A DNA stretch of 21,091 nucleotides. Origin: a virus. Below are positions 2,596 through 21,091 of the stretch, piece by piece. Made by a program: the position numbers and the translations under genes. The DNA is taken from IMG/VR virus record IMGVR_UViG_3300020183_000552, positions 1 through 21,091 of that record. The stretch is one strand, 5' to 3'. The notes below the pieces were generated by a model. The model made no database searches. It was not told where the DNA came from and was given only the letters and a program-made list of their open reading frames with translations. The first letter of the stretch is position 1. The number at the start of each line of letters is the position of its first letter.

Positions 2596-5500
2596 ATGGC
2601 GAATACCAAAAGAGTTCAATTTAGAAGAGGAACAGCCGCTGAACATCAGGCATTCACGGGAGCTCCAGGTGAAGTAACAGTAAATACAACTAATAGTTCT
2701 GTTCATGTACATAATGGCATAACTACTGCTGGTCAAGAGTTGGCTAGGATTGATCTGAATAATGTAAGTAGTGCTGAGTTTAATGGTGAATTGACCGTTA
2801 ATACAGTAGGAATATCTAGCACAACTGGTATAACAATAGGTATAGGAAATACTGAACTTGTTGTCAAAGGTGATGCTAGAGTTACTGGTGTCCTTACTGT
2901 AGGTTCTTCTTCTATTACTATTGATGGTATTAACGATGTAATTAGCGCAGAAACAATTCGCTCTAGTAGAATTAGAATTACTGATGATCCAATTTTATTG
3001 GATTCCTTTCAGAAAATTATAAAGACTGAGTTAACTCCATTTACAACTGTAATTCCTGTTAATAATATAGATTCTTTAATAGTTGATGATAGATTGTATC
3101 TTGATGGATATTATAATAATGTATCTATAATAGGATTTGGTACAGTAACTGTTATTCCATATTATTCTCCTTATTCTCAAACAACAACAACTGTTGTTAC
3201 TGGAATTAATTCTACAATAATAGGTATTGCATCTACCGGATCAATTAACACTGATTTGACCAATTATATAACAATTGACGGTTACTTAACAAATATAGAA
3301 GTAACAGGTATCACTACAATTGCCGTAACTACTGATATATTTGGTGTAATTGGAACTACCGGAATAAGTACTACAGTAGCTATTGGATCCACAATTTTAG
3401 GCGTAAATTCTATTGCTGGTATAGAAACTGGAGATTATATTTCAGTAAATCAATCACAAAATCCAGTTTCTATTGCAGCTACTGTTAATAATCTTGGTTT
3501 TTCTGATTATGTTTTTACTGGTCAAATTAATGGAACTGATCTAGCAATCACAATAAATGCCGGAGATACTTTAATTTTAAATATTAATGCATCTGGTCAT
3601 CCTTTTTGGATTCAAACATCTCCAGGAGCATATAATCCAGCAAATGTTGTAACTGAAAATATTACAAATAATGGAATTCAATCTGGAACATTAACCTGGA
3701 CACCTCAAACTGTAGGCACTTATTATTATGTCTGTGAGAATCATAGTAATATGGGTGGATCTATTACAGTAACACCAGCATCTACAGTTGGTATTATAAC
3801 AAATGTTCCTATAGTTGATTTAACAACACTTAATTTGCCATCATTTTATCAGCAATTTTCTTCAACTGGGATATCAACTACTGTTGGCCTCGGATCTACT
3901 ATAATACCTGTAAATATTGGTCCATCTACAAGTTACAATAATCCATATTTGAATATTGATAGCATATTTGATAATGTTGAAATTGTCGGTTTAACTACAG
4001 TATCTCTTCCTGATGCTTATTTTCCTTCAAATACATTTTCAATTTCAACAACTGTTGGCGCAGCATCAACTACAATTTATATTACTCCTCCTCCAACTGG
4101 AATAACAACAAGTCAATATTTATTGATTGATGGGATATTTAATAATATTTCAATTGTCAGTGTTGGGGATACTTATATTGGAATAGATCCTGGCGATACA
4201 TATGGATCAACAATATCAACAGGTACTCTAGTTACAGTAAATGATTTTCAAACAAATCGCGTTGGTGATGCAGTTTTAATTGGTATCGCAGATACTCATG
4301 GTGCTTCAATAAGTACTGGAACCACAGTTGGATTTAGTACATTTGTTACACCAATTACTAATGCTGTTGTTATTGGAACTGCAAATACTGTAGGGACATC
4401 AATTTCTACAGGAACTGCAGTATCATTTACACAGTATATTTTTGTTGAAGGACCAGCTGTTAGTATAAGTAGTGGTATTGGATCTGCTATCCCAACATCT
4501 TCTGTTGTTGGGTTTAGTACACTGTATAATGTTCGTGATTCAATTATCATCGATATATCAGATGCCAATGCATCTTTCATTTCTAATGAATCAATATTAG
4601 ATATTGTTCGATATGATTCCGAAGGAAGTAACCTTAAATTAGATTATGTAAATGTACTTGGAATTACTACATCTAATGACTTAAATGTAACAGATCATGC
4701 TCAGTTTAACACAGTTAATGTTTCTAGTGGATCTACTTTTAACGATATTCGAGTTCAAGACGATATAATTGTTGAAGGTGATGCTAAAATTGTTGGAGTA
4801 TTGACAGTTGGTTCTGGAACAGTTACCATCAATGGAGATACAAATACTCTTAATATTGGCAACAATGTAACACTTCATACAAATACATCAAGAGTTAATC
4901 ACTTAAGAGCAACTGGAATATCTACCTTCGAAAATGATGTTCATGTTGCTGGCACAAATGCATTCAAGAGTGTTCGTCTTGGAGTTGGTAATACCGAACT
5001 TCTTGTTACTGGTAATGAAAGAGTTACAGAAACACTTATAGTTGGTTCAAATGTTGTTTTGGATGGAACAAATAACAAGGTTTCTTCTGGAATCGGTAGT
5101 TTCCAAAACTTAATTATTTCGGGTGCTGGTACTGTTGATATTGATCATCTAAATGTTTCTGGAATCGTTACTGCTGGTAGAGTTATTGGTGCAGGACTTT
5201 CATTTCCAACTGCAGATGGCTTACCAGGTCAAGTTGTAACGACTGATGGATTTGGTAATCTATCCTTCAAAACTGGAGGTGCTGGTGGTTCTGATTATGT
5301 GATTAGAGTTTCTCAGGCAAATGGTGATGATGAGAACGACGGCAGTATTTTGCCAGTCAGAACTCTCAAAAAAGCAACTCAATTAGCTTCTAAGATTGGG
5401 CAAAGAGTAACCATTTATGTTGAGACTGGAGAATATATTGAAGATAACCCAATCATTGTTTATGATGATGTTTCTATTATTGGTGACTCTCTTAGAAATA

Positions 5501-8500
5501 TTGTTGTTAGACCTCTAAATGCTGGTAAGGATTTATTTAAACTAAGAAGTGCCTGTTATATCACAGGAATGACATTTAATGATTATGTTGACCCATCGAC
5601 TCAAGTTCCACAACATACCTTTGAATATTCTGTTGCATTTGATGATCCATTTAATTCAAATGTGGACAGGACTGGATATGCTTGCCCTGGAATACTAACT
5701 GTTACTGACTTTAAGTATAATCACATTACTGGGATTGCAACGGTTACTACCCAACAAGAGCATGAACTTTATAGAAATCTAACAGTTCGTCTTGCTGGTT
5801 TGGCATTTACTTGTGGGTATGATGAAGTTGGTATTAATACCTTTGCATATGATCACACAACTGGCGTATCTACAATTACTTTCTTTAGTAGTGCTTTATT
5901 TGGAGAAACGGGAAATCAGGGATATAAGATTGATGATGAATTGTTCCTTGCAAATCTTCCATTCTCATGTGGAGCAGAGCACGCAGGTGTAACAACAACT
6001 ATCTTCCCAGATGGAACAAGTCAATATGGAAGAGTATTCACTATTACTGGCATCAATACTGCAGCAAAAACAGTAACTTTTAATGCTGGTGTTTCAACAA
6101 TTCCTCACATTTACGAGGGTTGGCCAACAGTTGCAATTAGTACTTTTGCTTATACAAATACTACTGGTATTTCTACTGCAGTAACAGCATCAGCACACGG
6201 TTTCAAAGTTGGTGATAGAATTGCACCATCCATGCTTCAATTTACCTGCCCAGGTGGATCCGGTATTACTACAGACTTCTTCCCTGATGGTACGGTAACT
6301 AGTGCATCAAATGATGGTTATACTTTTGTAGTCACTTCAGTTCCCGACAGCACTACTTTTGTTTATAATGCAGGCATTTCAACTATACCTCATACTTATC
6401 TTGGTGGTGGTACTGTTCGTAGAGTTCCAATTGTTCAAGAAGTTTGGAGATATCCAGAGAAACTTTCTAGTGGACAAAAGGATTTTCCAGTTCGTAAAGT
6501 TATCAATGACTATACTTTTGAGATTAAGACAGAACCTCATACAAATGGTTGGGCTCATTATTATGTTCAGGACGGCACTGCGAGACTTTCAAAACCCGTA
6601 ATTAATAAGTCTCCGTATATTCAAAACTGTTCTATTATTTCTTCTCTTGGTGGTAATGGTATTCTTGTTGATGGTGATAAAGTTCTTTCACCAAACAAGG
6701 CTGTTATTCCAGAATTAGGCGAAAAACCACCCGTTGGCGACCAACCAGAGTTTGGTAAGTCAATGGTTGCGGCAACATTCACCATGATTTCATTTGGTGG
6801 TGTTGGTTGGAGAACAATTAATGACGGTTATGCACAGGTTGTTTCTTGCTTCCAAATTTTCTGCCGTTATGGATCATTAACTCAGTCTGGTGGTTACCTC
6901 TCAATTACCAACTCCGCAACTAACTTTGGTCTTTATGCTTTAAGATCTACTGGTTATAGTAGAAATTCGTTCGGGTTTGACCGTGGTCGTATCACGGCTA
7001 CTGGTGTTAGTGGTGGACTTCAGACGCTGAAAGCAGTTGGTTTAGGTAGAGCAGATCAAGAACTCTTTATTCTTAAGTTCCTTAACAGCAACTTAGAAGA
7101 TAAAACATCACTCTTTAAACCACTTGTAACGACTCAGGAATTTACTGGTGTTGCTGTTGATGATGTAAATGATATCTTTATTATTCCTGGACATCCTTTC
7201 CAAAATGAAGAGTCTGTGGTTTACTATGGGGATGAAAGTGTAGATCCACCAATTCAAATTAATGGTCTTATAAGTGGAAACGTCTACTATATTGGTTATA
7301 TTAATGCATCATCATTTAGACTCTATGAAGATGAAGGACTAGAAACTCTTGTGGCGCTAGGTTCAACATTTGTTGGTATTAATACTTTTGTTGGAAATAA
7401 TCAAGAGTTTATTGTAAATGAAGTTATTGATAAACACAACTCATATCAAACAATTAGTCTTGGTTCTACTGCTAATCCATTAGTATTTGTTTCAGGTAGA
7501 CAAATTACTCAGACACTTCCTACGGGAACTGCAACTGGTATTGCTTTGACATATAGTTCATCTACTAGAGAACTTATTGTTTCTGTCGAATCTGTTGCTG
7601 GATCTAGAAGATTCTTCTCTACTACAGGAAATCCAATTGTTGATCACAGTCCATCACCCGTTTCTGTTGGACTAACCGCAGTTCAGAGTAGATCTGATTA
7701 TTGGACATCAGAATTTAAAGTTGATTCTACTCAACCAGGAAATGTAATTATTGGTATTAGCACTTTACCTGAGAACTATTATATACACTTCCATCGTCCA
7801 TCTATTATTAACTCATCTTCTCACACTTGGGAATATGCTGGTTCTGGAATTGATTATAATGCACTTCCTCAAAATGGTGGTAAAACGGATTATGCTAAAG
7901 AACAAGTTTCCGAGTTAGGTGGTCGTGTTTATGCCTCAGGTACTAACGAACTTGGAGACTTTAAGATCGGAGATTTTATTACTGCTTTCAACAGAACTGG
8001 TAATATCATCTTCAATAATAAAGTTACTATTGGCCAGTTAGATTCTCTTAGATTGAGTCTTTCTGGTGGTGTTGTTGTTGAAGAGTTCTCAACAGATCAG
8101 AACTTAGGTGAAGGAGAAATTGGAGGGCCTCTTAATAGGAGAGTTTCTACTCAATTGGCAGTAAGATCTTTCTTGAATAACAGACTTGGCGACTTTATCG
8201 ATAAGACTGTTTCTACAAGTGCAATTCCAAATTCTGTTGTTCAATTGAACAGTAATGGTCAAATTAACCCAGACCTTATTCCACCAAAAGTTGTTAACTT
8301 TATTACTACAAATGTAAACGGTGCAAAAACAACTCTTGTAAACAGAATTCCAGCAGCAAATATTAAGCAAGGTGATACTGTTGTTGAACCAGAAAATTCA
8401 TTTGTACTTGTAAATGATACATTGAGTGAGTTCTTAATTCTCGATACAGATACAAGAAATTATAATTTCCAAAATGGAGATGAAGTAATTAGTGCTCTAT

Positions 8501-10428
8501 CTGCTGGAACTGCAATTGGTATTGTTACTGCTCCAACTTATGTTGGATATGGAACAACCGGTCTTGTAAAGGGTGTCGCATTAAGTCTCAAGACCCTTTC
8601 TGGTGGTTCTGGATATACTAACCCCGGAATTTATACATCCATCTTACTTGACACAGTTACTGGTATTGGTACTGATATTCTTGCAACAGTTACAATTAGT
8701 GCCGGCGGAAATGTGACAGCAGTTGGCATTGAAACTGGTGGTAGGTATTATCAATCTGATGATATTTTAACAATTAATGATCCAAGTAGAATTGGTGGAA
8801 GATCTAATGGATCAAACTTTACGATTAAAATAGACGATGTACAAACTAGATTGTACATGTCTTTGACTAACAGTGCCAAATTCCCAGGAACAGCTGCATT
8901 ACCAGATTTTGTTTCTGATGGAGATGCAATTGGAATACAAACGACCGTAAATAATGCTGGACTAGCAGTTACATTCTCTCCAACCAACTATTTGACGGGT
9001 GGTAGTGTTGACTTTACGACATATAGGATAATTGTTGATAATACAAACCTTGATAATGGAGATCCTGTTGTTTATTCTTCAGAAGGTGGAAATGGTATAG
9101 GTGGGTTAACCGATGGCCAAACATATTATATTAAGAAAGTTGGAGTTAGTTCTATTGAACTCCATCCAACTTATGGATTGTCTTCTATCGTAACTCTTCT
9201 TTCTAGTGGAACTGGAACTCATTCTTTAACCAGAACACCAATCAATACAGATAAAAATACAATTATTTTTGAAGATCATGGATTTGTAACTGGTGATCCT
9301 GTAAAACTGACTGGTAGTGCTCCAACTGGTCTTAGTGTTGGATCATTCTACTATGTTGGTTCTGCAACTACAAATTCATTTACACTGCATGGAACTCGTG
9401 CTGAGTCAACTGCATCTGTTAATGGATTTACTCTGAACGCTGTTGGAATTACAACAGTTGGTTCTGCAACTACACTCACATTTACTAAGCAAAATGTCCA
9501 GTATAGTGCCACGGTTAATACTTCATCATCAATTGAAAGCAACTGGTCATTGCTTGCTAAGCAGGACATTGATGCTGCAAATATTGTAACCGGTATAGTT
9601 TCACCAACAAGACTTGGATCTGGTTCTGCAACAGATTTCACTTTCCTTGCAGGTGATTCTTCATTCAAAAAAGTTGCAACATCTGTTGGTATTGGAACAA
9701 CAACACCATTACAAATTCAATCAACATCTCAAGATCTTGCACCGGGTGGTGTTGGAGTTAATACTCATTATGGAGATATAATCATTGAACCAAATAGAGT
9801 TGAATCTTCCCTTGATCTCTATTCAACTTTAGGTATTGCGAGATTTAAGTCATCGACATTTGAAATTGGCTCAAATGGTGCTGTTGGAATTAGAAACTCT
9901 AATACAGGTGATGTCGATGCTTCCACTCTTGGTGGACAATCTGGTGCATATTATCTCAGTGCAAATAATCACACTGGTGTTGTTCAAATTACCAGAGGTG
10001 GTACTGGATTAAATGGAGTTCCTCAGGTAGGTTCAATTCTAATTGGAAATGGATCAGCATATAATCTTACAAATACTCCTACATTCACAGGTCATGTTGA
10101 GTTTAATGCTGGATTAACTGTTACGGGAGTTGCAACTGCCACTGACTTTAATGCAACATCTGATGCTAATCTCAAGACCAATATAAGACTAATTGAAAAC
10201 TCTCTAGATCTCATTACTGAAATTGAGGGTGTAAGATTTGATTGGAAAGAAACAAAGAGACCTTCTATGGGTGTCATTGCTCAAGAAGTCGAAAAAGTTC
10301 TTCCTGAACTCATTGGTCAAGGTGAAACTAAGTCTGTTAACTATAATGGATTAGTTGGTATTCTGATTGAAGCAGTTAAAGAACTTCAAAAAGAAGTTAA
10401 TGAACTAAAAGCAAAACTTGATAAATAA
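2596..10428 (+). CDS. Giant tail-fibre/virion protein with Mtd-like N-terminus, cupredoxin domain and S74 chaperone end
   Basis: This 2610-residue protein is probably a tail fibre or tailspike that contacts the host. In order: residues 4-50 (VQFRRGTAAEHQAFTGAPGE...HNG) resemble the N-terminal fold of major-tropism-determinant-type fibre proteins. Residues about 60-600 carry many GIST/TTVGxGST strand repeats that surround a cupredoxin-like domain (301-392). Residues about 700-900 hold more strand repeats (ITIDGINDVIS and similar). From about 898 (VSQANGDDENDGS..PVRTLKKATQLA) there is a pectin-lyase-like beta-helix start, interrupted by three modules with an F(T/S)C core. Modules of the type HPF/HGFxxGDxVxY...GLxxGxxYY recur near 1532, 2150 and 2226. 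The C-terminal 89 residues match the S74 intramolecular chaperone of endosialidase-type fibres. The ATG at 2596 fits because the conserved MANTKRVQFRRGT begins there; the SD is poor. Likely trimeric and auto-processed, by analogy with the family. Confidence 0.85.
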   Translation: MANTKRVQFRRGTAAEHQAFTGAPGEVTVNTTNSSVHVHNGITTAGQELARIDLNNVSSAEFNGELTVNTVGISSTTGITIGIGNTELVVKGDARVTGVLTVGSSSITIDGINDVISAETIRSSRIRITDDPILLDSFQKIIKTELTPFTTVIPVNNIDSLIVDDRLYLDGYYNNVSIIGFGTVTVIPYYSPYSQTTTTVVTGINSTIIGIASTGSINTDLTNYITIDGYLTNIEVTGITTIAVTTDIFGVIGTTGISTTVAIGSTILGVNSIAGIETGDYISVNQSQNPVSIAATVNNLGFSDYVFTGQINGTDLAITINAGDTLILNINASGHPFWIQTSPGAYNPANVVTENITNNGIQSGTLTWTPQTVGTYYYVCENHSNMGGSITVTPASTVGIITNVPIVDLTTLNLPSFYQQFSSTGISTTVGLGSTIIPVNIGPSTSYNNPYLNIDSIFDNVEIVGLTTVSLPDAYFPSNTFSISTTVGAASTTIYITPPPTGITTSQYLLIDGIFNNISIVSVGDTYIGIDPGDTYGSTISTGTLVTVNDFQTNRVGDAVLIGIADTHGASISTGTTVGFSTFVTPITNAVVIGTANTVGTSISTGTAVSFTQYIFVEGPAVSISSGIGSAIPTSSVVGFSTLYNVRDSIIIDISDANASFISNESILDIVRYDSEGSNLKLDYVNVLGITTSNDLNVTDHAQFNTVNVSSGSTFNDIRVQDDIIVEGDAKIVGVLTVGSGTVTINGDTNTLNIGNNVTLHTNTSRVNHLRATGISTFENDVHVAGTNAFKSVRLGVGNTELLVTGNERVTETLIVGSNVVLDGTNNKVSSGIGSFQNLIISGAGTVDIDHLNVSGIVTAGRVIGAGLSFPTADGLPGQVVTTDGFGNLSFKTGGAGGSDYVIRVSQANGDDENDGSILPVRTLKKATQLASKIGQRVTIYVETGEYIEDNPIIVYDDVSIIGDSLRNIVVRPLNAGKDLFKLRSACYITGMTFNDYVDPSTQVPQHTFEYSVAFDDPFNSNVDRTGYACPGILTVTDFKYNHITGIATVTTQQEHELYRNLTVRLAGLAFTCGYDEVGINTFAYDHTTGVSTITFFSSALFGETGNQGYKIDDELFLANLPFSCGAEHAGVTTTIFPDGTSQYGRVFTITGINTAAKTVTFNAGVSTIPHIYEGWPTVAISTFAYTNTTGISTAVTASAHGFKVGDRIAPSMLQFTCPGGSGITTDFFPDGTVTSASNDGYTFVVTSVPDSTTFVYNAGISTIPHTYLGGGTVRRVPIVQEVWRYPEKLSSGQKDFPVRKVINDYTFEIKTEPHTNGWAHYYVQDGTARLSKPVINKSPYIQNCSIISSLGGNGILVDGDKVLSPNKAVIPELGEKPPVGDQPEFGKSMVAATFTMISFGGVGWRTINDGYAQVVSCFQIFCRYGSLTQSGGYLSITNSATNFGLYALRSTGYSRNSFGFDRGRITATGVSGGLQTLKAVGLGRADQELFILKFLNSNLEDKTSLFKPLVTTQEFTGVAVDDVNDIFIIPGHPFQNEESVVYYGDESVDPPIQINGLISGNVYYIGYINASSFRLYEDEGLETLVALGSTFVGINTFVGNNQEFIVNEVIDKHNSYQTISLGSTANPLVFVSGRQITQTLPTGTATGIALTYSSSTRELIVSVESVAGSRRFFSTTGNPIVDHSPSPVSVGLTAVQSRSDYWTSEFKVDSTQPGNVIIGISTLPENYYIHFHRPSIINSSSHTWEYAGSGIDYNALPQNGGKTDYAKEQVSELGGRVYASGTNELGDFKIGDFITAFNRTGNIIFNNKVTIGQLDSLRLSLSGGVVVEEFSTDQNLGEGEIGGPLNRRVSTQLAVRSFLNNRLGDFIDKTVSTSAIPNSVVQLNSNGQINPDLIPPKVVNFITTNVNGAKTTLVNRIPAANIKQGDTVVEPENSFVLVNDTLSEFLILDTDTRNYNFQNGDEVISALSAGTAIGIVTAPTYVGYGTTGLVKGVALSLKTLSGGSGYTNPGIYTSILLDTVTGIGTDILATVTISAGGNVTAVGIETGGRYYQSDDILTINDPSRIGGRSNGSNFTIKIDDVQTRLYMSLTNSAKFPGTAALPDFVSDGDAIGIQTTVNNAGLAVTFSPTNYLTGGSVDFTTYRIIVDNTNLDNGDPVVYSSEGGNGIGGLTDGQTYYIKKVGVSSIELHPTYGLSSIVTLLSSGTGTHSLTRTPINTDKNTIIFEDHGFVTGDPVKLTGSAPTGLSVGSFYYVGSATTNSFTLHGTRAESTASVNGFTLNAVGITTVGSATTLTFTKQNVQYSATVNTSSSIESNWSLLAKQDIDAANIVTGIVSPTRLGSGSATDFTFLAGDSSFKKVATSVGIGTTTPLQIQSTSQDLAPGGVGVNTHYGDIIIEPNRVESSLDLYSTLGIARFKSSTFEIGSNGAVGIRNSNTGDVDASTLGGQSGAYYLSANNHTGVVQITRGGTGLNGVPQVGSILIGNGSAYNLTNTPTFTGHVEFNAGLTVTGVATATDFNATSDANLKTNIRLIENSLDLITEIEGVRFDWKETKRPSMGVIAQEVEKVLPELIGQGETKSVNYNGLVGILIEAVKELQKEVNELKAKLDK
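3496..3771 (+). other. Cupredoxin (type 1 copper)-like domain within the fibre
   Basis: Residues 301-392 of the giant fibre read as a plastocyanin-type module: a beta-rich start (GFSDYVFTGQINGTDLAITINAGDTL), a GHPFWIQ motif with His335, and a YYYVCENHSNMGG end with Cys380, His383 and Met386. These four residues fit the type 1 copper ligand set (His, Cys, His, Met), with C-x2-H-x2-M spacing. The segment before the Cys (GTLTWTPQTVGTYYY) is also typical. The domain is embedded between strand repeats and not at a terminus. Copper binding is inferred from the ligand pattern. Confidence 0.75.
10159..10428 (+). other. Peptidase S74 / intramolecular chaperone of endosialidase domain
   Basis: Residues 2522-2610 begin SDANLKTNI and continue with GVRFDWKE, PSMGVIAQEVEKVLPELI and SVNYNGLVGILIEAVKEL, followed by a short coiled coil. 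This matches the S74 family, which trimerises a beta-structured fibre and then cuts itself off just before the Ser of SDxxLK. The Ser2522/Lys2527 pair expected for autocleavage is present, so release of an 89-residue fragment is predicted. Confidence 0.9.
10420..10428 (+). promoter_or_regulatory. Late promoter-like GATAAATAA
   Basis: The codons for the last residues of the fibre gene (Asp-Lys-stop) also spell a T4-like late -10 box. The 13-base context TGATAAATAATAT is identical to that at 2476. A transcript starting about ten bases later would carry the leader CTAAGCCGAGTGGAGACACG before the next ATG. Confidence 0.5.
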
Positions 10429-10863: not shown

Positions 10864-11166
10864 ATGTCAACACTTAGAGTTAATAAAATAACAAGTCTTG
10901 AAGATGGTCCTGTAGAATTTACTAAAGGAGTCACTTTTCCAGAAAATGTATCTTTTGAGACTACCACACAAAGCACAACTCGTCTCGGAATTGGTATTAG
11001 TTCTCCTACTGGTATTTTGACTGCTCCAACATTAAATACACAAACTATTAATATTACTGGAGTTTGTACAGCAACTACATTTACTGGTGTTGCAGGTGCT
11101 ATAGGATTAACTAATATTCCTGGACTTCCGAATGGAAAGGCAATTGCTCTAACATTAATAACTTAA
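10864..11166 (+). CDS. Small fibre-like protein, array member 1 (100 aa)
   Basis: This protein opens MSTLRVNKITSLEDGPVEF, a start common in cyanophage fibre-related proteins. It has a middle strand (NTQTINITGVCTATTFTG) like those used in repeat fibres, and ends LPNGKAIALTLIT. It parallels the next three genes but lacks the exact GDGSGLTG motif; AIGLTNIPGL stands in its place. GGAG lies seven bases before the ATG. It is probably co-transcribed with the 130-aa gene 12 bases upstream and the next gene 4 bases downstream. Likely a minor virion or fibre-associated protein; function unknown. Confidence 0.6.
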   Translation: MSTLRVNKITSLEDGPVEFTKGVTFPENVSFETTTQSTTRLGIGISSPTGILTAPTLNTQTINITGVCTATTFTGVAGAIGLTNIPGLPNGKAIALTLIT

Positions 11167-11170
11167 AAAA

Positions 11171-11449
11171 ATGATAGAAAAATCACAACTTAAAGTAGAT
11201 AGTATTGTTGATGTATATGGAATTTCTTCTCCAGAACTTCCATACAGTGCTGTTATACCTCCAGAAGGAACTCTTAATGTTAATGGAAATATAAATGTTG
11301 TCGGAGTTTCTACAATGGCAGATTTAAGAGTAGATTCTGTTGTTTCTCAATCTATTGTTGCTACAGCATTTGTAGGAGATGGTTCTGGATTAACAGGATT
11401 GCCAATAGTTAATGATTCAAAAGTAGTTGGTTTATCTTTAATATTTTAA
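11171..11449 (+). CDS. Small fibre-like protein, array member 2 (92 aa)
   Basis: Contains LKVDSIVDVYGISSPELPYSA, IPPEGTLNVNGNINVVGVST, SQSIVATAFVGDGSGLTGLP and KVVGLSLIF. It is most like array member 3: both share the LPYSAVIPP/FPYSAVIPP segment and the FVGDGSGLTGLP motif. The ATG follows the previous stop by four bases with only an A-run before it, so translation probably depends on coupling. The motif set is the unit used repeatedly in large cyanophage fibres, which suggests the protein forms or caps a short beta-structured spike. Function inferred only from similarity in style. Confidence 0.6.
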   Translation: MIEKSQLKVDSIVDVYGISSPELPYSAVIPPEGTLNVNGNINVVGVSTMADLRVDSVVSQSIVATAFVGDGSGLTGLPIVNDSKVVGLSLIF

Positions 11450-11458
11450 AAAAAAATT

Positions 11459-11749
11459 ATGTCAAGAATTAAAGTAAATTCAATTGTAAATAGATTTGAT
11501 ACAGGAGCTCCAATATTTCCATATAGCGCCGTTATACCACCTGGTGGAACTTTAACTGTAAATGGAAGTATAAACACTGTCGGTGTTTCAACACTTCAAT
11601 CTATTCAAGCAGATACTGTTTTATCCCAAACTATCACTGCAACATCATTTGTTGGAGATGGATCTGGATTGACTGGATTACCTACAGTAAATCAAAGTAA
11701 AGTTGTCGCACTTAAAATGATTATAGATCCTTTGCCATTTAGATCATGA
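11459..11749 (+). CDS. Small fibre-like protein, array member 3 (96 aa)
   Basis: Contains IKVNSIVNRFDTGAPIFPYSA, IPPGGTLTVNGSINTVGVST, SQTITATSFVGDGSGLTGLP and SKVVALKMI, with a C-terminal DPLPFRS. It is a close paralogue of array member 2. Its C-terminal tail ending in FRS resembles the LRS of member 4. The start follows a nine-base A-rich gap with no SD, and its stop overlaps the next start (ATGA). It is probably translated by coupling within a single late mRNA. Confidence 0.6.
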   Translation: MSRIKVNSIVNRFDTGAPIFPYSAVIPPGGTLTVNGSINTVGVSTLQSIQADTVLSQTITATSFVGDGSGLTGLPTVNQSKVVALKMIIDPLPFRS

Positions 11750-12036
11750 TCGATATTAAAGTAGACTCTATAGTTGGTTCTAATGGAGAATCTCCTCCAT
11801 CTTTTCCAGAAGGAATTAATATTGGGCAAAATATAATTAATAATTATGGGAATCTTAATGTTTCTGGAATTTCAACGATCCAAACTATAAATGTAGATAC
11901 TTCTATTTCTAATACTCTTTATTCTTCGTCTTATTTTGGTGATGCTTCTGGATTAACAGGAATTGATGCTACAACTACATTGAGTAAAGTTGTAGCACTA
12001 AAATATCTTCTTTCCGATCCCCCTTTAAGATCATAA
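11746..12036 (+). CDS. Small fibre-like protein, array member 4 (96 aa)
   Basis: Contains IKVDSIVGSNGESPPSFPEG, NYGNLNVSGISTIQTINVDTS, SYFGDASGLTGID and SKVVALKYLLSDPPLRS. It is the most divergent of the three clear paralogues in the middle, where an Asn-rich stretch replaces the YSAVIPP segment. The N- and C-terminal signatures are kept, so the ends may be the parts under common constraint and the middle the variable part. The start overlaps the previous stop by four bases. A late-promoter-like motif directly follows its stop, which suggests the end of this translational unit. Confidence 0.6.
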   Translation: MIDIKVDSIVGSNGESPPSFPEGINIGQNIINNYGNLNVSGISTIQTINVDTSISNTLYSSSYFGDASGLTGIDATTTLSKVVALKYLLSDPPLRS

Positions 12037-12083: not shown

Positions 12084-12461
12084 ATGGTAGCTCCAAATAT
12101 TGTAGGTGTAACAACCATTACTGGGATCACGACTTCAATAAGTCTTGCCAATACTTCTGCTAATGTGATTGTTAGTAATCCTGCTAATAGTCAATATGTT
12201 TATAAAATAAACTCAATCATTGTTGCAAATGATGATGGTGCCGCAACTGCAAATATTACTCTTAATTTGCACGATTCTGCTTCTGGTGCTGGCACTGCAA
12301 CTAGATTAGCATTTGCAATTGATGTTTCTGCTAAGTCAACTCTTGTTATTTTGGATAAAGCATCTTCAATTTATTTGCCAGAAAATGCATCTATTACAGC
12401 TACAGCATCTGCAGCTAATGACTTAGATGTTACTTGTTCATATGAAGCAATTATTGATTGA
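12084..12461 (+). CDS. Beta-sandwich virion protein, 125 aa
   Basis: The sequence is rich in Ala, Thr, Ser, Asn and Ile. It reads as a single beta-sandwich: an N-terminal GVTTITGITTS stretch, then YVYKINSIIVANDDGAATANITLNLHD, a middle LVILDKASSIYLPENASITATAS, and a final strand LDVTCSYEAIID. The pattern of alternating strands with a YLPENxSI loop is typical of small phage head- or tail-decoration or fibre-tip proteins in cyanophages. It has its own late-promoter-like motif upstream and no good SD. The next gene starts 14 bases after its stop. Role unknown beyond probable virion component. Confidence 0.6.
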   Translation: MVAPNIVGVTTITGITTSISLANTSANVIVSNPANSQYVYKINSIIVANDDGAATANITLNLHDSASGAGTATRLAFAIDVSAKSTLVILDKASSIYLPENASITATASAANDLDVTCSYEAIID

Positions 12462-12475
12462 TAGGAGAAATAAAA

Positions 12476-12940
12476 ATGTTAGATATTACTGGACTTTACT
12501 CTCATATGGGTCAAGAACCACGAGAATTACCTCATGAAATTTTATTAAGTGATGGTAGAAGTAGAACTGATAGAGAATCTTTTACAGAAGAAGAGATAAA
12601 AGATGCCGGATTTAGTGGGCCATATGAAGCACCACAATATGATGCAAACACTGAAATGTTAGTTTGGGATTCTGGAACATTAAGTTTTTTTGTTCAAAAA
12701 ATTCCAATGAATACCCAATCACAAAGGCAATTTACAGAAGAAGAACTTTGGGTAATATTTAGAGCAGAAAGAGATTTTCGTTTAACGAAGTCTGATTGGG
12801 TTCTTGTTCAAGATTCTCCTCTTTCTGATGAGAAAAAACAAGAATGGAGTTCTTACAGACAAAAATTAAGAGATCTTCCGAGCACTATTTCGACAATTTC
12901 TAGTATGGAAGAAATAGTCTGGCCTGAAGTTCCACAGTAA
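12476..12940 (+). CDS. Phage tail (fibre) assembly chaperone, APC-like, 154 aa
   Basis: The C-terminal half carries FRAERDFRLTKSDWVLVQD, then PLSDEKKQEWSSYRQKLRDLP. This is the signature of the Phage_tail_APC family (R..L...DW....D.PL.....WA.YR..LR.LP), encoded next to tail-fibre or adhesin genes and taken to assist their folding. The N-terminal half (about residues 1-70) is unrelated in style and might contact the client. The start at 12476 is chosen because AGGAG lies a few bases upstream; a TTG six codons earlier would overlap the previous gene and places the SD inside the gene. The location directly before a Gly-rich adhesin supports a chaperone role for that adhesin or the fibre. Confidence 0.75.
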   Translation: MLDITGLYSHMGQEPRELPHEILLSDGRSRTDRESFTEEEIKDAGFSGPYEAPQYDANTEMLVWDSGTLSFFVQKIPMNTQSQRQFTEEELWVIFRAERDFRLTKSDWVLVQDSPLSDEKKQEWSSYRQKLRDLPSTISTISSMEEIVWPEVPQ

Positions 12941-14642: not shown

Positions 14643-15317
14643 ATGCCAATTCAAGATTATAGCATAATTCCTTTATTCCCAACCGTAGTTTTTGAAACAA
14701 AGTTGGAGGATAATTTTGATGAAGATTATGCTAAAATGAAAGACGGATATGAATTTATTGATAATTTTATCTATCAAAACTGTTATGTAAGTAATTGTTT
14801 TACAATACTTGATGATTTTCCAAAATTAAAAGAAACACTATTAAAAGTTTTTTATATTGTAAAAGACGAAGTTCTTTTGTATCAGAATACAGACTTTGCA
14901 ATCACTACTAGTTGGTTAACAAAGGTAAATCCAAACGCAACATCTCATCTTCATAACCATAAAAATAGTTTTTATAGTGGTGTTTTATATTTTGATGATA
15001 TTGAAGATTGTGGTGGCCTTTGGTTTGATAGAGATTCTGTAGGAACATCTTCTTTTCTAGTAAATGAACCATTAGAGTATAACATTTATAATAGTTCGGG
15101 ATGGAAAATTGATCCTGGAAAAAATGTTGTAGTATTTTTTCCAAGTTATTTGAAGCATAAAGTTGGATATCATAAAGCACCTGTGGATAGATATTCATTA
15201 GCATTTAATATTATACCAATTGGAAACTTTGGCATGTGTGATTCTACAATTAATCTTAGTGTTTCTGTGCCAAGAAATAATAAAGATTTGAAGTCAATAA
15301 AAGGTGATTTTGTTTAG
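14643..15317 (+). CDS. 2OG-Fe(II) oxygenase, TIGR02466-like, 224 aa
   Basis: Opens with IPLFPTVVFETKL, typical of a family of putative 2-oxoglutarate/Fe(II) oxygenases common in marine cyanophages (the TIGR02466 type). The core has SHLHNHKNSFYSGVLYFDD (His102, His104, His106), then FFPSYLKHKVGYHKAPVDRYSLAFNI with His172 as likely second metal ligand and Arg183 to bind 2-oxoglutarate. A double-stranded beta-helix fold of this size is usual. Substrate is unknown. It is the first of three consecutive oxygenases of different subfamilies; the next ATG follows its stop after one base. It has no SD and is perhaps read from the sigma70-like promoter just upstream. Confidence 0.8.
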   Translation: MPIQDYSIIPLFPTVVFETKLEDNFDEDYAKMKDGYEFIDNFIYQNCYVSNCFTILDDFPKLKETLLKVFYIVKDEVLLYQNTDFAITTSWLTKVNPNATSHLHNHKNSFYSGVLYFDDIEDCGGLWFDRDSVGTSSFLVNEPLEYNIYNSSGWKIDPGKNVVVFFPSYLKHKVGYHKAPVDRYSLAFNIIPIGNFGMCDSTINLSVSVPRNNKDLKSIKGDFV

Positions 15318-15318
15318 T

Positions 15319-15816
15319 ATGAAAGATTATGTTATTAGTGATAATTTTCTTCCAGAAAATGATTTTCTTATATTAAAAGAAACTTTATGTTCTGATAATT
15401 TTCCCTGGTATATTGCAACTATTTTGACACCAGAATATTTTGATCAAGATGATAATTTAAATTTTCAATTAGTTCATAATTTCTTTTTTAATAATAGACA
15501 AAATAGCAGTTATTATCAACTTCTTTATCCATTAATAGATAAATTAAATTGTCGATCTATTGTAAAAATAAAAGCTAATCTGACCCCAAAAACGGAAAGT
15601 ATACTAACATATAAATTTCATACAGATGTTGATTATGAATGTATGACCTCAGTGTTTTATTTAAATACTAATGATGGGTTTACAAAATTTTTAGATGGTA
15701 CTATTGTGAATAGTGTAGAGAATAGACTTTTGACATTTAATTCATTAATGCGGCATACGGGATCAACATGCACTGACGAGAAATACAGAAGTGTAATAAA
15801 TATAAATTATTTTTGA
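15319..15816 (+). CDS. 2OG-Fe(II) oxygenase, prolyl-4-hydroxylase-like, 165 aa
   Basis: Short single-domain oxygenase. The metal triad is visible: His101-x-Asp103 in YKFHTDVDYECMTSVFYLN and His146 in MRHTGST. Arg157 in YRSVININYF is the expected 2-oxoglutarate ligand. The NDGFTKFLDG segment between them is usual for this fold, where a Gly-Gly-x-L/T-x-F turn is often present. The ATG at 15319 is preferred to an in-frame GTG five codons earlier because it avoids overlap with the upstream gene and gives the common start KDYVISDNFL. The substrate may be a peptide or a small molecule; the sequence does not tell. Confidence 0.8.
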   Translation: MKDYVISDNFLPENDFLILKETLCSDNFPWYIATILTPEYFDQDDNLNFQLVHNFFFNNRQNSSYYQLLYPLIDKLNCRSIVKIKANLTPKTESILTYKFHTDVDYECMTSVFYLNTNDGFTKFLDGTIVNSVENRLLTFNSLMRHTGSTCTDEKYRSVININYF

Positions 15817-15822
15817 TATGAC

Positions 15823-16440
15823 ATGAATGTAACTTACTTTAATGATAAAAATCAGTTTCCATATTTAATAATTGATAATTTTTATGATGAAAATGAACTA
15901 AAATCAATATGGGAAGAATTAGATTTTTTGTGTTACAATAAAAAATTAAAACCACCGGAATCCACAGGGACGGCTTTTGATGACAAAAATTTTATTTTGA
16001 AAAAGAATTCTGCTTTATGGTTAGATTCTGCATATAAAGATAGAAATCTTTCAAATATATTACAAGTTAATAGAAAAATATTTAATATATGGGCAGATAT
16101 TGTAGTTAAACACCCATCATGGTTTTTCAATAATGTTGATATTGTCCGAGATACAACTTTAATTTCATATTATGAAAATCAAGATCACTATAAACGGCAT
16201 AAAGATCATGGATATTTGACTAGTTTAACATGGTTTTACAAAGAACCAAAAAAATTTAGTGGTGGTAATTTGCATTTTGATGAATTTAATCTAACTATTG
16301 AAGTTGAAAATAATAAAACAATAATGTTTCCATCTACAATTTGGCACTCTGTTGATCCTGTTATCATGAAACCAGAGTTTTGTGGTAAAAAAAATGGTAG
16401 ATTTTGTATGACACATTTTATGAATACCACATTTATCTAA
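15823..16440 (+). CDS. 2OG-Fe(II) oxygenase, prolyl-4-hydroxylase-like, 205 aa
   Basis: Opens FPYLIIDNFYDENELKSIWEEL, the usual N-terminus of P4H-like phage oxygenases. Catalytic residues: His126-x-Asp128 in YKRHKDHGYLTSLTWF, the FSGGNLHFDEF turn, His175 in FPSTIWHSVDPV, and Arg193 in GRFCMTHFM. All four key residues are present, so it should be active. It differs clearly from the two neighbours, so the three genes are not simple recent duplicates. It follows the second oxygenase after six bases and is probably in the same transcript. Substrate unknown; protein hydroxylation of a virion or host target is possible. Confidence 0.82.
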   Translation: MNVTYFNDKNQFPYLIIDNFYDENELKSIWEELDFLCYNKKLKPPESTGTAFDDKNFILKKNSALWLDSAYKDRNLSNILQVNRKIFNIWADIVVKHPSWFFNNVDIVRDTTLISYYENQDHYKRHKDHGYLTSLTWFYKEPKKFSGGNLHFDEFNLTIEVENNKTIMFPSTIWHSVDPVIMKPEFCGKKNGRFCMTHFMNTTFI

Positions 16441-16478: not shown

Positions 16479-16730
16479 ATGAAATTTACAGTTTATTCTA
16501 AAGATGGTTGTCCCTATTGCGACAAGATCAAACAAGTGCTAGAATTAGCAAGTCTCGATCATGTTGTTTATCGACTTGATTTTGATTTTACCAGAGAAGA
16601 CTTTTATGAAAAGTTTGAATGGGGTGCAACTTTTCCTCAAGTTGTACTAAATGAAGAAAGCGAAGATGAAGAAAAACTTGGTGGATGCACTGATACAGTT
16701 AAATATCTTCAAGAACAAAAGATGGTGTAA
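16479..16730 (+). CDS. Glutaredoxin (CPYC), 83 aa
   Basis: Small thiol-disulfide oxidoreductase of the glutaredoxin family. The active site is Cys11-Pro-Tyr-Cys14 after a beta strand (FTVYSKDG). Pro53 in TFPQV is the conserved cis-proline, and Gly68-Gly69-Cys70 fits the glutathione-binding GG(C/F/S) motif. Length is standard. It would use glutathione as electron source, for example for phage ribonucleotide reductase or other thiol enzymes; ribonucleotide reductase itself is not in this window. A 38-base AT-rich gap without a clear late box precedes it. The next gene starts at the last base of its stop codon (TAATG), which shows translational coupling. Confidence 0.9.
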   Translation: MKFTVYSKDGCPYCDKIKQVLELASLDHVVYRLDFDFTREDFYEKFEWGATFPQVVLNEESEDEEKLGGCTDTVKYLQEQKMV

Positions 16731-19096: not shown

Positions 19097-19423
19097 ATGC
19101 TCTCTACACAATATCGTTTACGCTTAGAAGAAATCTGCCGAAAGATCGTCTTACAAGAAGGTGTGAGTTTAGAGGATATGATTTGGGCAGAGAAGCTTGC
19201 AAAAGCAAATCGTTCTGCTGGAACGATACTTCGTCAGGCAAGAAGAAAAGCAGAAAATCCTGATATGCAAGAAGGAGATTTAGATGATTTTTTAAATCAA
19301 CTTGACATCGGTGGCACTGGTAACGAAAGATTCGGAAGAAGAGGATTTAATAGTGTAGATGATATTGTAGACTTCTTTGGAGAAGGTAGAGATAAACCAG
19401 ATGATTGGAGGCAAAGAGACTGA
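19097..19423 (+). CDS. Hypothetical acidic/basic small protein, 108 aa
   Basis: The N-terminal half is a charged, likely helical pair (TQYRLRLEEICRKIVLQEGVSLEDMIWAEKLAKANRSAGTILRQARRKAE). The C-terminal half has acidic, Gly-rich linkers (GDLDDFLNQLDIGGTGNERFGRRGFNSVDDIVDFFGEGRDKPDDW). The short hydrophobic-acidic segments (LDDFLNQL, VDDIVDFFG) resemble the kind of tail that contacts sliding clamps or RNA polymerase in T4-like late-transcription proteins, but I see no firm match and do not name it gp33. The start has GGA seven bases upstream and a late-promoter-like box close by. Its stop overlaps the next start by one base. Confidence 0.65.
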   Translation: MLSTQYRLRLEEICRKIVLQEGVSLEDMIWAEKLAKANRSAGTILRQARRKAENPDMQEGDLDDFLNQLDIGGTGNERFGRRGFNSVDDIVDFFGEGRDKPDDWRQRD

Positions 19424-19659
19424 TGCAAGCAGTATTGTATTCTAAAGATAACTGTCAGGAATGTGATAGAGCCAGAATGCTTTTAAACAGTCTTGATATT
19501 TCTCACTTAGAGTATAAACTTTCAAAAGACTTTAATGAGAAACAATTTATTTCTGAGTTTGGATCAGAAGCATCATTTCCGCAGGTAGCAATAGACTATA
19601 TGCATGTTGGTAATTTAAAAGAAACACTTCAATTTTTGAAGGAAAAAAATTTAATATGA
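19423..19659 (+). CDS. Glutaredoxin-like protein with CQEC site, 78 aa
   Basis: Thioredoxin-fold protein: an initial strand (AVLYSKDN), Cys11-Gln-Glu-Cys14 in place of the usual CPYC, and Pro53 in SFPQVAID as the cis-proline. The Gly-Gly glutathione motif of the other glutaredoxin in this window is reduced to HVGNLKET. A redox role is likely but the acidic active site and lost GG may change partner or potential. The start at 19423 is the ATG of a TGATG overlap; an in-frame TTG six codons earlier is unlikely. The downstream gene also overlaps by ATGA. Confidence 0.75.
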   Translation: MQAVLYSKDNCQECDRARMLLNSLDISHLEYKLSKDFNEKQFISEFGSEASFPQVAIDYMHVGNLKETLQFLKEKNLI

Positions 19660-20991: not shown

Positions 20992-21037
20992 ACTGAATAG
21001 GACGGAAGTAAGCCGACTCGGAACGGATCGTTCATCT

Positions 21038-21091
21038 ATGGAAATCATTCTCTGGACTTGCGTTGAAGCTCAAAAGCTTATTAACAATGTT
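21038..21091 (+). CDS. Start of a further small gene (truncated by window end)
   Basis: The frame opens with MEIILWTCVEAQKLINNV and runs to the last base. The 46-base gap before it contains CGGAAGTAAGCCGACTCGG and then CGTTCATCTATG; the latter closely matches the leader of the gene before (CGTTCATCCTATG at 20775). This shared leader and the codon pattern make a real gene likely. Nothing can be said of its function from 18 residues. Confidence 0.5.
   Translation, partial: MEIILWTCVEAQKLINNV

Follow-up and report, generated by a model that had tools for sequence, protein, structure and literature searches.

The window analyzed here, the 21,091-base IMG/VR virus record IMGVR_UViG_3300020183_000552, contains four short paralogous genes, A to D, that we read as anchor or shaft subunits of a single tail fiber module. 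Their products would be assembled together, plausibly with A, B, and C as a heterotrimer, and we give this reading a probability of roughly 0.45. The window is related to T4-like cyanophages, and short stretches of it match Kyanoviridae such as S-SM2 and ACG-2014j. Cyanophage and pelagiphage genomes reportedly keep a hypervariable host-recognition cluster with tail fibers.

Table 1. The fiber module, with positions in the window
Feature	Positions	Strand	Description
Gene Z, 130 aa	10459-10851	+	Putative upstream partner; conserved C-terminal ~45 aa (NYAMAGPISVSVGATVTIGAGVSYIVI)
Gene A, 100 aa	10864-11166	+	Putative anchor subunit, MSTLRVNKI...KAIALTLIT; conserved orthologue despite divergence
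Gene B, 92 aa	11171-11449	+	Putative anchor subunit, SQLKVDSIV...SKVVGLSLIF
Gene C, 96 aa	11459-11749	+	Putative anchor subunit, MSRIKVNSIVN...SKVVALKMIIDPLPFRS
C-terminal tag of C, residues 79-89	11693-11725	+	KAIA-like tag, from a tag survey; helix predicted (AlphaFold2 model of C)
Gene D, 96 aa	11746-12036	+	Putative fourth anchor subunit, MIDIKVDSIV...SKVVALKYLLSDPPLRS
Gene E, 125 aa	12084-12461	+	Putative conserved beta-sandwich partner (MVAPNIVGVTTITG...)
Tail fiber assembly chaperone	12458-12940	+	PF16778 Phage_tail_APC, E = 2.3e-19
Variable tip fiber, 542 aa	12961-14589	+	PF21722 Gly_rich_2, E = 8e-10; sub-threshold Fibrinogen_C match

An earlier note on this DNA, made from the sequence alone, had described four head-to-tail genes of about 95 residues, three of them clear paralogues and one divergent. 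The open reading frames lie exactly there, encoding 100, 92, 96, and 96 residues, and the start of D overlaps the stop of C by 4 bases. When the window record was searched with C, B was found with an E value of 3.6e-33 (63% identity) and D with one of 6.5e-17 (43% identity). A is the divergent member, but it can be aligned end to end with the others, with an inserted stretch, and it has orthologues of its own in other contigs. The four proteins share one layout, in which an N-terminal anchor leads into a rod with one or two repeats and the C terminus bears a tag resembling "KAIA". The IKVDSIV-like starts that had been noticed are present (LRVNKI, LKVDSIV, IKVNSIV, and IKVDSIV in A to D), as are the FxGDGSGLTG motif and the SKVVAL-like ends, with FTGVAGAIGLT and KAIAL taking their place in A. 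Each protein carries a KAIA-like tag at its end (KAIALTLIT, SKVVGLSLIF, SKVVALKMII.., and SKVVALKYLL..), and only C and D extend beyond it. The tag of C corresponds to GKAIAMAIVFG, the tag found in other fibers of marine phages. The AlphaFold2 model of C as a monomer is weak (pLDDT 74.5, pTM 0.30) and places a helix at residues 79-89, at the tag. Pfam and PHROGs searches with A to D, Z, and E assigned no direct family; the links obtained, to repeats of "tail fiber" and "baseplate wedge" proteins, were weak.

Elsewhere in the window, an 823-aa open reading frame (7-2478) is made of repeats of about 40 residues (SGSGSIFTFISAAEVSGSNPPESTELFKITGS), with a near-exact 123-base tandem repeat at 794-1023, and a 2610-aa fiber (2596-10428) has an Mtd domain (PF18454) at its N terminus and an intramolecular chaperone, Peptidase_S74, at its C terminus. 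Three consecutive putative 2OG-Fe(II) oxygenase open reading frames (14643-16440), identified by eye, directly follow the tip gene; genes of this kind, also recognized by eye, flank the module in other contigs. Two glutaredoxin-like genes (16479-16730 and 19405-19659), again assigned by eye, lie within a 3-kb stretch. At 20995-21050, about 50 bases (GGACGGAAGTAAGCCGACTCGGAACGGATCGTTCATC..) are 92-96% identical in more than 10 cyanophage or marine virus records, in some of them between genes. This element contains a GAACG/CGTTC inverted repeat just before the start of a small open reading frame, and it matched no Rfam family or tRNA.

Related cassettes were gathered from IMG/VR by searches with C, A, and B and then with E, for which 97 relatives were obtained. 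About 30 distinct other uncultured contigs contain the same arrangement. The gene order A-B-C(-D) is fixed, the ends are specific to each gene, and the array always lies ahead of E. Across contigs, A starts with MS(T/S)LRVNKI and ends near KAIALTLIT, B starts with S(K/Q)IQVDSIEAYDP and ends with KSIAFTLIG, C starts with KIKVNSIVNKNDDG and ends with KxIAYKRILGYDEYRA or DPLPFRS, and D ends with SDPPLRS. A has its own conserved start and end, and the divergent member is therefore an orthologue with an identity of its own. The homology of A to D goes beyond low-complexity beta repeats, the outcome that would have undone the earlier grouping, since each gene has its own two termini and these are conserved from contig to contig. 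D is present in ten cassettes (L070, L073, L080, L083, L092, L094, L098, L099, L107, and L123). The gaps between the genes are 1-14 bases, and C and D overlap by 4 bases in most cassettes with D. In 9 of 29 cassettes, A, B, or C has a degenerate tag or none; loss in A and loss in B coincide in four cassettes, a count that ignores kinship and carries little weight. The likely setting of the cassette is the hypervariable host-recognition cluster with tail fibers that cyanophage and pelagiphage genomes keep (PMC7029224).

The genes around the array are conserved to different degrees. The C terminus of Z is conserved in all 27 readable cassettes and had no match in phages, whereas its N terminus varies between cassettes, in proteins of 79-476 aa. 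The E homologue lies directly downstream of the array, 47 bases after D in the window, as judged from family alignments and a model. In other cassettes, E is often followed by a PF16778-like chaperone and then by a variable Gly- or Cys-rich tip gene, which is present in 32 of 33 cassettes. No relative of E was confirmed in prokaryote genomes. The AlphaFold2 model of E is a beta-sandwich of high confidence (pLDDT 93.1, pTM 0.83), and its fold matches Ena appendage pilins, the KHP40 trimeric cement protein (Z 9.2, rmsd 2.9), and the HFTV1 turret (Z 8.9). It also matches predicted virion proteins of S-SCSM1, S-TIM5, and MaMV-DC, although a shared sandwich fold alone shows no function; in S-TIM5 and S-SCSM1, proteins with such folds carry the annotation of virion structural protein. 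Conservation within E peaks at 97% in its first eight residues, and the monomer model shows poor order over the first ten (pLDDT 69), as would be expected of a partner-binding segment. A literature search on the KAIA-type tag and the start of E returned nothing relevant. The gp38-type adhesins of T4 relatives are variable, whereas few genes of the cassette are as well conserved as E and hypervariable segments are absent from it; because E is conserved, a role as a variable adhesin of this type was rejected.

The pairing of a tagged fiber with E is not confined to the array. In many other phages, a single long fiber gene ending in ..TGKAIAMAIVFG precedes E. A DNA-pattern scan for GKAIAMAIVFG found at least 76 open reading frames. 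Among the matches listed, the tag is the extreme C terminus in 76 of 76, and E follows it directly in 70 of the 73 with room for a further gene (67 recognized by pattern, and L154, L188, and L212 by eye). Two cultured phages have the same pairing, with a fiber that ends in GKAIAMAIVFG in Pelagibacter phage HTVC033P (gp66-gp65) and in GKSIAMAMIFG in DSL-LC04 and that stands directly before an E homologue. Unlike the window, both have one long fiber gene with an unrelated N terminus and no array.

The closest cultured counterpart is Synechococcus phage Bellamy (MF351863), which like the window has a short anchor, an E homologue, and a tip as consecutive genes. Its gp39 (111 aa) has the N-terminal anchor, repeats, and the end GKAIALSMVFG, gp40 (126 aa) is the E homologue, and gp41 is a Gly-rich PF21722 fiber of 711 aa, all annotated as hypothetical. 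The earlier descriptions "fiber-like" and "adaptors" are supported for A to D, each of which, like gp39, combines anchor, rod, and tag and stands before a conserved E and a variable tip. The set is flanked by gp36-37-38 and gp42-43-44, which follow the same three-gene plan. Bellamy differs from the window in having one anchor gene per module, against four in the window and three or four in its relatives. On contig G002, an A-B-C-E module lies beside single-anchor modules. From these single-anchor modules in Bellamy and on G002, the array in the window is thus a module in which one anchor gene was expanded to four. A tblastn search of 50,697 phage records, which diverged arrays could escape, revealed no such array in cultured phages, and the N-terminal anchor occurred there mainly at the start of longer fibers. 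The array had been called unusual in consisting of separate genes; that is so among cultured phages, in which no module was seen with more than one anchor, but in this group of uncultured contigs it is common. Contig 3300042197_002404 (L266) carries modules of another anchor (ending in ..WRDSSLF or ..DSWLFGSGG), a sandwich protein, and a Gly-rich protein. Its sandwich genes begin with MALNRGN or MALERGK, and gp36-37 and gp42-43 of Bellamy are comparable; these modules are possibly parallel tag-partner pairs of other specificity.

In the reading that we prefer, the module runs in the order Z, A-B-C(-D), E, chaperone, and tip. Each anchor would attach through its N-terminal segment, continue as a short rod with one or two repeats folded as a trimeric beta-helix, and contact E through the tag at its C terminus. 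E would act as the joint between the anchor and the variable Gly-rich tip, the presumed receptor-binding part of the fiber, and A to D would be expected in the virion. In most phages, E has a single anchor gene before it, whose product is presumably a homotrimer. Duplication would then have produced specialized subunits that most likely stand next to one another in a single heteromeric complex, to which D would be an additional or substitute member.

One sign of such an assembly is the matching of lengths. A, B, and C agree in length in every one of the 29 complete cassettes: 11 cassettes have three short genes (A 71-81, B 74-78, and C 79-82 aa), 18 have three long ones (A 89-100, B 88-96, and C 96-103 aa), and none is mixed. 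D is restricted to long cassettes. The additional unit, some 16 residues long, occupies one shared position in A and C. Both G001 and G006 combine a short cassette with a long one on the same contig. A tree built from the termini, with the middle excluded, needs three changes of the length trait; the alignments behind such trees have about 130 short columns, and the majority of forks are weak. The AU test rejected a single clade of long cassettes (p = 0.009, and 0.0015 without the two most distant rows) and with it a single historical change of length. The long cassettes are not one clade, so the length of all three genes switched together more than once. The tree of E needs 7-9 changes, with weak support.

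The matched lengths, the retained tags, and the single E suggest a heterotrimer of A, B, and C, with parallel homotrimers as the alternative. In its most specific form, the anchor would be an A:B:C heterotrimer of paralogous chains that arose from a homotrimer by duplication, with rod repeats changing together and three tags presented to one E; this we regard as less likely than not, and the ten cassettes with four genes argue against a simple heterotrimer. Instead, A, B, C, and D could each assemble into a separate short homotrimeric adaptor, and these adaptors would attach copies of E and the tip to distinct conserved positions on the baseplate or on other fibers. The orthologue-specific N termini suggest distinct attachment sites, single-anchor modules exist, and equal lengths could equally serve parallel homotrimers of equal reach. 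Three or four anchors share one E and one tip gene, however, and repeated coordinated changes of length in all three are less directly expected from separate homotrimers. We consider this alternative rather unlikely, though the best of those weighed here.

Gene conversion was considered as another source of equal lengths. Within a length class, B and C of one cassette resemble each other more in the middle than B and C of different cassettes do (0.554 versus 0.452, p < 0.0005). In L081, the middles of B and C are 99% identical at the DNA level, against 62% in the N-terminal part, and L092 and L107 are similar. The middle of A shows no greater similarity to B or C from its own cassette than to those from other cassettes (p = 0.64 and 0.24). 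Judged from these sequence comparisons, B, C, and D undergo gene conversion in the middle and A does not. The proteins had been said to differ in the middle, and in the window they do, but in several relatives the middle is the part most alike among B, C, and D. If gene conversion alone spread the repeat changes, the length match would have no structural reason, and the homogenized B and C middles are what this predicts. A is without homogenization yet always length-matched, so recent conversion does not explain its match, which speaks for a structural cause. An old conversion that later divergence obscured may have had the same result, but we judge gene conversion alone an improbable explanation of the match.

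Phage tail fibers are described as homotrimers in series, and we know of no heteromeric precedent among them, although a precedent exists in a giant virus. The best PDB profile match of A to D is a weak one to P23 of PBCV-1 (E = 0.021), over a GNITATRLYGDASNMSGLP stretch. The capsid fibers of PBCV-1 are trimeric right-handed beta-helices, and type I is a P20:P20:P21 heterotrimer (PMC9617893). P20-P23 (8H2I) resemble A to D in the GNITATRLYGDASNMSGLP-type repeat near the N terminus of P23, but they are long proteins of an algal virus capsid. The long tail fiber of T4 (gp34-gp37 and gp38) is encoded by several genes for small and large subunits with a chaperone gene (PMC6957217), and in being multi-gene with a chaperone gene it resembles the module studied here. 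It differs in consisting of serial homotrimers, and no sequence match to it was found. By analogy, A to D could follow one another along the fiber in gene order and build a longer, segmented shaft that terminates in E. The fixed gene order would fit, and the gene-specific termini could be serial interfaces, but all members, not the last alone, keep the tag that elsewhere directly precedes E, and a serial shaft gives no reason for the matched lengths. Such a shaft seems quite improbable.

Region-wise dN/dS for seven pairs was mostly well below 1, which is not the pattern of diversifying spikes; values near or above 1 were found in a few regions with few changes and for D in one pair. The middle is less constrained than the ends, with dN roughly twice as high between orthologues, as short exchangeable spikes widening host range through a diversified middle might show, but this proposal of the earlier note is very improbable because the tip is what varies (38% between L058 and L059, the least conserved gene, against 94% for E and 74-82% for A to C), and dN/dS is under 1 for almost every region with enough divergence, the middle is homogenized between B, C, and D, order and number are fixed, and the ends are orthologue-specific. 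On these comparisons, the part that varies, and that could set host range, is the downstream tip rather than A to D.

A conserved group of three or four very small anchor paralogues that stays matched in length despite sequence divergence points to a heteromeric fiber. The comparison also exposes a general unit of marine phages, in which a KAIA-tagged fiber, a beta-sandwich partner, and a variable tip occur together. Neither Pfam nor PHROGs yielded a named family for the anchor or the sandwich partner, and the unit provides a handle for annotating fiber genes now listed as hypothetical. Within it, the tip is the gene to examine for host range.
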